Assembly: GCA_937868765.1 (NCBI GenBank)
Contig: CALMNL010000009.1
Span: forward strand, 62,001 to 126,000
Length of the DNA: 64,000 nt
Direction: 5' to 3'
From: an uncultured Desulfatitalea sp.
GTDB lineage: Bacteria; Desulfobacterota; Desulfobacteria; Desulfobacterales; Desulfosarcinaceae
Part shown: positions 6,244 to 9,602 of the stretch, piece after piece
How positions within the stretch are numbered: the stretch's first letter is position 1
Layout of the letters: the number at the start of each line of letters is the position of its first letter
Made by a program: the position numbers and the translations under genes
The notes under the pieces: model-generated
Told to the model about the DNA's origin: nothing
What the model saw: the letters and a program-made list of their open reading frames with translations, nothing else
Databases searched by the model: none

Positions 6244-7137
6244 TCACAGGCCATCCGCCTTGCGCGCATGGGCGGCCACTGCTTCGACGATGCGGGGCCA
6301 TGCGCCGCCGTGGGGCATGTCGTGGCCCATGCCCTCGATGAGCATCAGTTCGGCACCCGGTATGGCCTCCGCGCTGTCTCTGCCCCCCGACACCAGCACC
6401 AGCGGATCGTCCGTTCCGTGGATCACCAGCGCCGGCGCCGTTATGGAAGCGAGCCTGGGTTTCCGGTTGCCGTGGGCCAGAATCGCCGCGAACTGCCGTG
6501 TTTTGCCCGGGCCGTAGAATGCCCGGTCGTAGCTGCGTTCGGCCAGATGCTTGTGCCACGGCGCATCGAAGGGGAAGCCGGGACCGGCGATGGTACGATA
6601 TAACGTCAGCATGTAGTCGATATACGCTTCGCGCTCGGTGGGCGCGGGTGTCAGCAGCAGGGACATGATCTCGGGTTTCGGCTTGGGAAGTTGGGGATTG
6701 CCCGTGGTGGCATAGACCTGGGTCAGGCTGCGGACGCGCGAAGGGTGCCGGTACGCCACCGTCTGCGCGATCGCCCCGCCCATGGAGATGCCGCAGATGT
6801 GGGCTTTGTCTATGCCGAGCGCGCCCAGCAGCCCGGCCGCGTCGTCGGCCATGTCGTCGAGGGTATAAGGCGCATCGATTTTTTCACCCTTCATCAGGGA
6901 CGCCATCACCGCCGTCAGGTCGGGCACGCCGGCCGCTTCCATTTTCGAGGAGAGCCCCACATCGCGGTTGTCGAAACGGATGACATAAAGGCCTTTTCCC
7001 GCCCACGCGTTGCAGATCTTCTCGTCCCACCCGATCATTTGGCCGCCGATGCCCGCGATCAGCAGCAGCGGCGGGGAGGAAGGGGCTCCGAAGGTCTCAT
7101 ATTCGATCCGAATTCCGTTCGCTGAAACATTGGGCAT
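6244..7137 (-). CDS. Alpha/beta hydrolase
   Basis: A 297-residue alpha/beta-hydrolase. The nucleophile elbow is CGISMGGAIAQ, the acid lies in VIHGTDDPLV and the histidine in EGMGHDMP; the oxyanion-hole strand is LLLIAGIGGQ. It is similar to aromatic-ring-fission hydrolases and esterases, without a clear substrate. The frame stays open upstream as far as 7875, but GGAGG sits 7 bases before the ATG at 7137 and the protein then starts MPNVSANGIRIEYETFG as expected. It is divergent from the MerB-like gene, with 165 bases between them. Confidence 0.88.
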   Translation of the reverse strand: MPNVSANGIRIEYETFGAPSSPPLLLIAGIGGQMIGWDEKICNAWAGKGLYVIRFDNRDVGLSSKMEAAGVPDLTAVMASLMKGEKIDAPYTLDDMADDAAGLLGALGIDKAHICGISMGGAIAQTVAYRHPSRVRSLTQVYATTGNPQLPKPKPEIMSLLLTPAPTEREAYIDYMLTLYRTIAGPGFPFDAPWHKHLAERSYDRAFYGPGKTRQFAAILAHGNRKPRLASITAPALVIHGTDDPLVLVSGGRDSAEAIPGAELMLIEGMGHDMPHGGAWPRIVEAVAAHARKADGL

Positions 7138-7302
7138 TGCAATTCCTCCATTCGCACTGGATTTGCATATCCGAAGCCGATTGCCTTGACTTTCGATCCG
7201 GTTGCCCGGGTTCGTTTGGTCAAAAAAAATGGCTGTTCCAACTGCGATCAAAACACTATACACAGATAAAAGGAAGCTTTTTAACGGCGAAAGGAGTCGT
7301 AT

Positions 7303-8007
7303 ATGAAGGAACCCGGCAAAATGGATCAGGTTTTTCATGTCATCATGAAGCGGCTGGTAGAGACCGGGCAGGCACCGCACTACACCGAGGTGGCCGCCGC
7401 GTTGGGAGTGCCTGCGGAGGAAGGCCGCAATTCCGTGCACGCGCTGTTTGCGCTGCCGAAGTTTCCGGGGTGGCTGTTTCCCAATACCGATTACATTACT
7501 TCTTTTCCTCCCTTCAACAACCTGCCCACCCAATACCGCATCACCGTTTCCGGCCGGCAAAAATGGTTCGCCCAGTGAGGGTTCGAAGCGCTGGCGGTCA
7601 GCTGGCTTTTCCCCGGCAGGCAGGTGCGGATCGATGCCCCCTGCCTCGATTGCGGCGCGCCGATGCACATCGAGATGACGGATGGCGTGCTTGAAAGCCC
7701 GGCAACGGCGGATATGGTGGCCTACACCTGCATCCCTTTCCGTGAATGGTACAAAGACATACCCTATTCCTGAAGCACCATGAATCTCTTCCGGTCGGAA
7801 GAGCATGCGCGCCGGTGGAGCGGGTTCAAGCCTGGCACCGAAGAAGGCATCGTCCCCGTGCCGGACATGGCCCAAATTTTTTCCGGCAATTTCTTCAGGC
7901 GGCGCCTGGACCCGGATTATCTATCCCGCATGCGCGAATATGCCGCGGAAATGGTGGGCGCATTGCAAGCCAGGGGCAGTTTCTGGCAGCTGCCCCGCAA
8001 ACGATAA
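7303..8007 (+). CDS. MerB-like (organomercurial lyase family) selenoprotein with two predicted selenocysteines
   Basis: A single frame runs 7303-8007 (234 residues, stop TAA) if UGA at 7576 and 7771 are read as selenocysteine (residues 92 and 157). The N-terminus is a MerB-type winged-helix-like region (VFHVIMKRLVETG, YTEVAAALGVP). Around the first UGA the sequence reads QKWFAQ-U-GFEALAVSW, matching MerB YAWC96ALD99 with Sec for Cys96 and Glu for Asp99. It continues into VRIDAPCLDCGAP, where MerB has its structural Cys117 region. The second UGA, IPYS-U-STMNLFRSEEHARRW, aligns without gaps with MerB C159-CHVHFFAS...A..W. Spacing between the two is 65 residues, against 63 in MerB. Coding signal continues through both UGAs. 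GGAG (AAAGGAG) precedes the ATG. No merA, merR or merT is in the window, so mercury detoxification is an assumption. The alternative is a decayed gene, which the exact placement of both UGAs makes unlikely. Confidence 0.87.
7586..7608 (+). promoter_or_regulatory. Candidate bacterial SECIS element for the first UGA
   Basis: Downstream of UGA 7576-7578, AAGCGCTG (7586-7593) pairs with CAGC (7599-7602) and, after a 2-base bulge, GCTT (7605-7608). The apical loop is GCGGT. The loop starts 15 bases after the UGA and GGTC begins after 17. GGUC at this distance is the SelB-contact feature of the E. coli fdhF SECIS, where it begins about 18 bases after UGA. Confidence 0.7.
7786..7803 (+). promoter_or_regulatory. 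Candidate bacterial SECIS element for the second UGA
   Basis: After UGA 7771-7773, CTCTTCC (7786-7792) pairs perfectly with GGAAGAG (7797-7803), closing the tetraloop GGTC at 7793-7796, 19 bases after the UGA. A 7-bp perfect stem with a GGUC loop at this distance closely resembles the fdhF SECIS. Confidence 0.8.
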
Positions 8008-8036: not shown

Positions 8037-9602
8037 ATGCAGGTACCCATGACCCCCAGTCGCATCCTGAAGCGCGCGGTCAAGTTGTATGCCGACAAGA
8101 CGGCCGTGGTCGACGGAGCGGTGCGCTTGACCTATGCCGAGGTCGACGAGCGCGTCCGGCGGGTGTATCACGCCGTGAACGAGGCCGGCATCGCCGCCGA
8201 CGGGCGCATCGCGGTGCTGGATTTCAACACCTACCGCTACCTGGAGCTCTATTTCGGCATGTCCCTCACGGCAAGGGTGATGCTGCCCCTCAACATCCGC
8301 CTTTCGCCGGCCGAATACACCTACATCCTGAACGACGCCGAGGCCGAGGCGATCATCTTTCACGCGGACTTCAAGCCGGTGATCGAAAAGATCCGCGGCG
8401 ACCTGCGCACCGTCCGATCCTTCTATGTCGCCGAGGGCGCGGCCGACGCCCCCTGGATCACGGACACCTACGAGAACCTCATCGCCCGGGCGGCGAGCGA
8501 TCCGGCGGCCTCGGCCGTCGAAGACGAAAACGCCGTGTTGAACCTCTATTACACCAGCGGGACCACCGGCAAGCCCAAGGGGGTGATGCTGACCCACCGC
8601 AACATCTACGCCAACGCCCTGACCACCATCATCGCCTTCAAGCTCGAGGATGGGACCGTGTGGCACCATATCGCCCCGCTGTTCCATCTGGCCGACGCCT
8701 TTTTCATCTGGTCGGTGACCTACCAGGGCGGGCGGCATGTCATGCAGCGCCAGTTCGTGCCCCAGCAGGTGCTGCAGACCATGCAGGCCGAAGGCGTCAC
8801 CGCCGCCATGATGGTGCCCACCATGATCAATTTTCTGCTCAACGTGCCGGACCTGGCGAGCTATGACCTCTCGGCCCTGCAGTGGGTCATGGTGGGCGGC
8901 GCCCCCATGTCGCCCGCCAACGCCCTGCGCATGATGAAGCAACTGGGCTGCCGCTACATCTCCGGATACGGCCTCACCGAAACCTGCCCGCTGCTGACGG
9001 TGGGCAATATCAAAGACACCCTGCGGCACCTGCCCGAAGAAGAGCAGGTCAAATATCTCACGCGCACGGGCCTGGAGGTGCCGGGGGTGGATCTGAAGGT
9101 GGTCGATGCCGAAGGCGCGCAGGTGCCCTGGGACGGCGTGAGCGTCGGCGAGATCGCCGTGCGCGGCGACAATGTGATGAAAGGCTACTGGAAACTGCCC
9201 GGCGAGACCGAGCAGGCGATCCGCGGCGGATACTTTCATACCGGAGACCTGGCCACGGTGGATCCCCAAGGGTATGTGCTCATCGTGGACCGGGCCAAGG
9301 ACATCATCATCAGCGGCGGGGAGAATATCTCCTCGGTGGAGGTGGAGAACATCCTCTACATGCACCCGGCCGTGCTGGAGTGCGCCGTCATCGCCATGCC
9401 GGACGAGAAGTGGGGCGAGGTTCCCAGGGCCATCGTGGCGCTGAAGCCGGGCGCCTCGGCCACGGAGGCGGAGCTGGTGGCCTTCGCCCGCGAACGGCTG
9501 GCCGGCTTCAAGACCCCCAAAACCATCGTGTTCGTCAAAGAGCTGCCCAAGACCGGCTCGGGCAAGATTCTCAAGACCGAACTGCGGGCGCGTTTCCGAT
9601 AG
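8037..9602 (+). CDS. AMP-forming acyl-CoA synthetase (long-chain fatty acid-CoA ligase type)
   Basis: 521 residues of the adenylate-forming ANL superfamily: P-loop YYTSGTTGKPKGVMLTHRN, A5 motif GYGLTET, hinge and A8 YFHTGDLATVDPQGYVLIVDR followed by KDIIISGGENISS, and the C-terminal catalytic Lys in PKTGSGKILK. It activates a carboxylic acid to its CoA thioester with ATP; the chain length cannot be told from sequence. An open frame extends upstream to 7746, but GGAAGGAGG lies 6 bases before the ATG at 8037. It begins 29 bases after the MerB-like gene, so the two are probably one transcript. Confidence 0.92.
   Translation: MQVPMTPSRILKRAVKLYADKTAVVDGAVRLTYAEVDERVRRVYHAVNEAGIAADGRIAVLDFNTYRYLELYFGMSLTARVMLPLNIRLSPAEYTYILNDAEAEAIIFHADFKPVIEKIRGDLRTVRSFYVAEGAADAPWITDTYENLIARAASDPAASAVEDENAVLNLYYTSGTTGKPKGVMLTHRNIYANALTTIIAFKLEDGTVWHHIAPLFHLADAFFIWSVTYQGGRHVMQRQFVPQQVLQTMQAEGVTAAMMVPTMINFLLNVPDLASYDLSALQWVMVGGAPMSPANALRMMKQLGCRYISGYGLTETCPLLTVGNIKDTLRHLPEEEQVKYLTRTGLEVPGVDLKVVDAEGAQVPWDGVSVGEIAVRGDNVMKGYWKLPGETEQAIRGGYFHTGDLATVDPQGYVLIVDRAKDIIISGGENISSVEVENILYMHPAVLECAVIAMPDEKWGEVPRAIVALKPGASATEAELVAFARERLAGFKTPKTIVFVKELPKTGSGKILKTELRARFR

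Follow-up and report, generated by a model that had tools for sequence, protein, structure and literature searches.

A gene on the forward strand of the window (by which we mean the whole 64,000-nucleotide stretch of uncultured Desulfatitalea DNA that was analysed) almost certainly encodes an intact protein with the fold of the organomercurial lyase MerB and with two selenocysteine (Sec) residues; from sequence and a structure model, we give a probability of roughly 0.62 to the reading that it is such a selenoprotein and likely performs a MerB-like cleavage, with methylmercury as the presumed substrate. Its frame runs from ATG to TAA through 234 codons and is interrupted solely by two in-frame TGA codons that lie 65 codons apart, as the earlier note on this DNA had described. 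The parts of the gene are these:

7303..8007, + strand, double-Sec MerB-family gene; 234 residues with Sec92 and Sec157, stop TAA
7292..7296, + strand, AGGAG, a likely ribosome-binding site judging by its sequence
7576..7578, + strand, UGA 1, codon 92, at the position of MerB Cys96
7585..7587, + strand, Glu95 codon, at the position of MerB Asp99
7642..7644, + strand, Cys114 codon, invariant in the 68-row alignment; we take this column to be the structural Cys117 of MerB
7771..7773, + strand, UGA 2, codon 157, at the position of MerB Cys159

With translation table 11 the open reading frame ends after 91 codons. That two random nonsense mutations should strike exactly these two of 234 codons has a probability of 3.7e-5, in keeping with the earlier note's argument from chance; recurrence of both UGAs in relatives, described below, is a stronger test than this calculation.

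The membership of the read-through protein in the MerB family was assessed by profile, alignment and structure. With U entered as C it scores 71.8 bits against PF03243 (gathering cut-off 27), and all 68 members of the alignment match that profile at E<=0.001. A HMMER alignment to the MerB structure 3f2g (a C160S entry) sets U92 on C96, E95 on D99 and U157 on C159. The first UGA thus falls where the earlier note had placed it, with Glu in place of Asp99, and so does the second; the note's statement that the second region aligns without gaps is slightly inexact, as a one-residue gap lies directly before U157. Invariant columns of the 68-row alignment are P70, C/U92, C114 and C/U157. A structure model built from this alignment has a mean pLDDT of 96.5, and Foldseek gives it 11 PDB matches at E<=0.001, every one of them a MerB or MerB2 structure (query TM-score 0.49-0.65), with a listed identity to solved MerB of just 18-22%. 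A MerB fold is therefore well supported for the modelled protein. In MerB itself Cys96 and Cys159 bind mercury and Asp99 participates in proton transfer (PMC4525700). Under strict criteria that ask for these three residues the window protein is not a canonical MerB, since it has Sec codons at both Cys positions and Glu95 at that of Asp99 (subfamilies B and C, below, have Asp), and we infer from its sequence that it is MerB-like in function. It falls short of the NCBI equivalog PRK13239 (33.1 bits, cut-off 193), and no model of NCBIfam 20.0 reaches its cut-off with this protein.

The two UGAs recur in relatives. PF03243 finds 63 matches in 55 of the 389 genomes of the class, 49 of them with two internal TGA codons; of the rest, 9 lack a stop, 4 contain a single TGA and 1 contains TAG. 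Together with 26 loci from a scan of GTDB contigs, these gave 85 distinct copies (91 domain hits, less five identical cores and one second domain), which comprise 54 Sec/Sec, 19 Cys/Sec and 9 Cys/Cys copies and three fragments that show the second UGA only; the combination of Sec at the first site with Cys at the second is absent from the 85. The contig-scan patterns wrote Cys in place of Sec and so favour Cys at the first site, and all 18 Cys/Sec copies of the window's own subfamily (A) come from that scan, which biases their proportion; the class and phylum profile searches are free of this bias. These 18 copies come from metagenome-assembled genomes named as Nitrospinae, Tectomicrobia, Alphaproteobacteria, Proteobacteria, Rokubacteria, Burkholderiales, Chloroflexota, Actinomycetes, Acidimicrobiaceae, Deltaproteobacteria and one unplaced bacterium. 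Among 395 genomes drawn from the phylum, 50 hold a total of 61 matches, of which 36 have two TGA codons (the window copy included). In all 35 double-TGA copies from other classes of the phylum, that is, from genomes whose label places them in the same phylum as the window's genome and no closer, both UGAs lie at the same two columns; two of the 35 coincide with L054 and L073 of the first set and 33 are new. The same phylum set holds 6 Cys/Cys copies, 5 Cys/Sec copies and one (L206) with the first UGA and a frame that cannot be aligned at the second site; 47 of its 58 new matches were aligned, the 11 left out including 9 without an internal stop, 1 with TAA and 1 partial. Wherever the residue is readable in either set, both sites hold Cys or Sec and nothing else, although related copies are not independent observations. 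The earlier note had proposed looking among PF03243 members for Cys or UGA at these positions and for degeneracy, and the region is as a rule not degenerate, three broken relatives aside (G351 with TAG, G603 with TAA, and L206). Three Cys/Sec relatives without a Cys-Sec motif at the second site (L164, L202 and L204) perhaps represent other single-Sec groups.

In a midpoint-rooted FastTree phylogeny the Sec/Sec copies form three groups, A (which contains the window gene), B (motif AAU) and C (mostly motif GNU), which makes at least three double-Sec subfamilies. Subfamily B (L084, L086, L088-L098, L100-L104, L190, L193-L195, L197-L201) and subfamily C (L039, L045, L076, L082, L085, L087) are double-Sec with Asp at the Asp99 position. 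Cys/Cys groups lie between the Sec/Sec groups, and two Sec/Sec copies fall in with Cys/Sec sequences; this scatter of the three combinations indicates that Sec was probably gained or lost more than once. Since no Sec/Cys copy was seen, the sequences further suggest that the second site may have acquired Sec first.

Each UGA of the window gene is followed by a stem-loop:

7590..7606, + strand, SECIS-like stem-loop 1; 6-bp stem, loop GGUCA at 7596-7600
7786..7803, + strand, SECIS-like stem-loop 2; 7-bp stem, GGUC tetraloop at 7793-7796

Such SECIS-like elements are present at both sites in the window gene and in subfamily A. After UGA 2, 68 of 76 Sec copies have a GGUC loop at +20 to +23 and none of the 9 Cys copies does; the loop returns in all 35 additional Sec/Sec copies of the phylum. 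Depending on the copy, Arg or Trp codons supply the GG of this loop, with TCG or TCA next, which means that the RNA is conserved where the protein differs; in addition, three pairs of the stem switch between C-G and U-A across copies. Several second-site stem pairs form in Cys copies too (two of them in 9 of 9), and it is thus the loop and not the stem that separates Sec from Cys copies. At the first site, subfamily A has a 6-bp stem-loop in 28 of 28 Sec copies, with the loop GGUC in 20 and AGUC or AGUU in 8; each stem pair forms in 27 or 28 of the 28 Sec copies versus 12 to 22 of 23 Cys copies. The pattern is less uniform elsewhere: a GGUC loop is absent at site 1 of subfamilies B and C, a hairpin of another kind follows the first UGA of subfamily B, and subfamily C has a GGUC loop at the second site in 3 of 7 copies, with two stem pairs that form in 1 and 2 of the 7. 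The five Cys/Sec copies of the phylum set have no GGUC at the second-site offset, and the UGA in the host genome's own selD is followed by a hairpin without GGUC. Mean folding z-scores are modest, at -0.69 over 54 copies and -1.29 over 76; the corresponding means of Cys copies are -0.21 and -0.34, and positions offset from the sites give values from +0.29 to -0.48. Rfam at gathering scores finds nothing in the 64-kb window.

The host genome (5.36 Mb in 18 contigs) contains the Sec pathway that the earlier note had made a condition of its proposal, with matches to tRNA-Sec (selC; 72.4 bits), SelB (360.6), SelA (614.5) and SelD (386.1), the last from a gene with one in-frame TGA of its own. Across the class 385 of 389 genomes match tRNA-Sec, 307 of them over the cut-off, and weak matches also occur in 13 of 14 control genomes, so that a tRNA-Sec match tells little at the level of the class. 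In none of the three segments that the UGAs delimit does dN/dS reach 0.5, and most values are 0.05-0.3 (25 pairs listed of 55 computed). Because the UGAs recur at the same columns, Cys is the sole alternative there, GGUC loops follow, dN/dS is low and selA, selB, selC and selD are present, the comparisons give good support to the view that both UGAs are read as Sec and that the whole protein is under selection.

Two other explanations of the UGAs have to be set against this one. A dead merB with two nonsense changes, or a sequencing error, would account for the table-11 frame that stops after 91 codons and would have company in the three broken relatives; we regard it as highly improbable, and the recurrence of both UGA positions across many genomes, the GGUC loops and the low dN/dS reject it as far as sequence can. 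Variants of tRNA-Sec that deliver Cys exist, and decoding of the UGAs as Cys or some other residue is conceivable on that ground; with a complete selA, selB, selC and selD set in the genome, and SECIS-like loops weakened or missing where a copy already has a Cys codon, there is very little to recommend this explanation either.

The closest described proteins are MerB and a MerB-like organometallic lyase, SaoL (NF040728). The window protein resembles MerB (PF03243/PRK13239; PDB 1s6l, 3f0o and 3f2f, and MerB2 5c17) in fold and retains the positions of Cys96, Cys117 and Cys159; it differs in having Sec at both the Cys96 and Cys159 positions, Glu at Asp99 and no mer neighbours among those found. 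SaoL is likewise a MerB-type selenoprotein with Sec at the Cys159 position, but it has Cys at the Cys96 position and a CU motif, whereas the window protein has Sec at the first site and Ser-Sec at the second; its score against the SaoL model (34.2 bits, cut-off 140) and its motif rule out membership. The host does have a true SaoL as a second MerB homologue (L147:5764-6459(-), contig C6; 164.8 bits against the same cut-off of 140); it is of the Cys/Sec type and lies about 3 kb from selD. In a 2026 review, which counts 119 prokaryotic selenoprotein families or subfamilies, by far the most of them with a single Sec and a few with two or three, SaoL is listed as a MerB-like selenoprotein with motif CU and one Sec (PMC13188914). 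An 'Alkylmercury lyase MerB-like protein' is entered as a selenoprotein without a motif (PMC9312934), and 'Organic mercuric lyase MerB2' stands among predicted selenoproteins in a table entry without sequence, motif or Sec number, so that it can be compared by name alone, the name suggesting a Sec-containing MerB relative (PMC7435645). A term look-up for MerB in three selenoproteome papers (PMC5029168, PMC12013277, PMC2398784) found no occurrence. In a literature search by titles and abstracts, with full texts in part and coverage incomplete, we found no description of a double-Sec MerB, as the earlier note had supposed; its claim of novelty has to be narrowed, as single-Sec relatives (SaoL, 'MerB2') are already in print. 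Within the literature searched, then, what is new here is Sec at both sites of a MerB relative.

The surroundings of the gene give little guidance as to function. Its neighbours are:

6244..7140, - strand, alpha/beta hydrolase (profile match), divergent, upstream
8037..9602, + strand, acyl-CoA ligase (AMP-binding enzyme), beginning 29 bases downstream of the merB-like gene

Co-transcription with the ligase is possible; the adjacency is not conserved among relatives. The best NCBIfam scores of the hydrolase are to macrolide-esterase models, far under their cut-offs (189 of 420 bits). An antisense reading was considered and rejected: a 543-codon minus-strand frame over the gene is an open extension upstream of the hydrolase gene, and the alpha/beta-hydrolase match falls within the shorter gene and not in the extension. 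Among 66 loci placed of 67 (some contigs duplicated) no conserved neighbour was found, the largest protein cluster covering 9 loci, and none of 10 neighbour proteins scanned belongs to mer or hgc families; neighbour calling was crude for GC-rich DNA, which makes this a weak negative.

The host has HgcA (G000:C2:14013-14996; 426.4 bits, cut-off 275) and is thus a predicted mercury methylator; no MerA in the host genome is over the cut-off (best 384 of 454 bits). HgcA is over its cut-off in 164 of the 389 genomes of the class, made up of 29 of 46 double-Sec genomes versus 135 of 343 others (Fisher p 0.004, uncorrected for kinship, genome size and completeness). For three of the 29 (G062, G086, G268) this status was taken from the E-value, and three further genomes of the 46 have intermediate HgcA scores. 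In G367 and G383 the gene is represented by just a fragment that includes the second UGA, and G351 (TAG) is excluded. Subfamily A alone gives 18 of 26 genomes (p 0.006, kinship likewise uncorrected). In the window's genus hgcA is strong in four of four genomes with the gene and weak in six of seven without it, with an intermediate score in the remaining one (G180); two genera, g35 and g53, run counter to the link. The double-Sec gene thus co-occurs weakly with hgcA.

SelB, directed by one stem-loop per UGA, very probably inserts Sec92 and Sec157 at the two mercury-binding Cys positions of MerB. Selenolates are deprotonated at neutral pH and are better nucleophiles and tighter mercury ligands than thiolates. 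If the protein works as a lyase, the two selenolates would capture R-Hg+, a carboxylate (Glu95 for Asp99) would aid protonation of the carbon, as in the familiar carbon-cleavage step of MerB, and the hydrocarbon would leave; Hg(II) would then be held between the two seleniums until thiols or sulfide take it. Compared with MerB, capture and protonolysis would be expected to be faster and product release slower, with thiols or sulfide as acceptors, and an unusual affinity of the diselenol site for mercury is plausible chemistry. Methylmercury, in preference to another organometal, is the most likely substrate, with carbon-metal cleavage at the diselenolate site. The limits on this reading are the lack of a conserved mer or hgc neighbour, the lack of a MerA over the cut-off, Glu for Asp99 and the 18-22% identity to solved MerB.

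The main competitor, which we judge clearly less probable though far from negligible, is a double-Sec MerB-fold protein whose substrate is some other organometal or metalloid (tin, lead, arsenic, tellurium), or which only binds or carries a soft metal. It would fit neighbours that are not conserved and of which none indicates mercury, the existence of several subfamilies, one copy family that adjoins ordinary housekeeping genes, and the name 'organometallic lyase' that NCBI gives to the model of the single-Sec relative; the MerB fold with all three mercury-site positions retained, and some co-occurrence with hgcA, speak for the methylmercury lyase.

Whatever its substrate, the gene has both metal ligands of one active site as Sec, and many related genomes have such double-Sec genes, which ordinary gene finding would truncate. 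One survey screened MerB homologues for Cys96, Asp99, Cys159 and Cys117 and lists MerB in 10 Deltaproteobacteria genomes (PMC8261052), and another validates 'cysteine and aspartic acid signatures' of MerB (PMC12997803); double-Sec demethylases would be missed by merB surveys because gene calling ends at residue 91 and checks for Cys96 and Cys159 reject them. We offer only tentatively, as somewhat doubtful, the broader proposal that these proteins may be methylmercury demethylases with a Sec-Hg-Sec site, forming a class that is widespread but unannotated and that would shield hgcA-bearing methylating anaerobes from their own product. If they are demethylases, MerB-type activity has gone uncounted in a group where hgcA is common, and the question of which organisms degrade methylmercury in anoxic sediment could be put to a direct test. 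The CC, CU and UU forms found in nature, in turn, make up a series for asking why enzymes use selenium.
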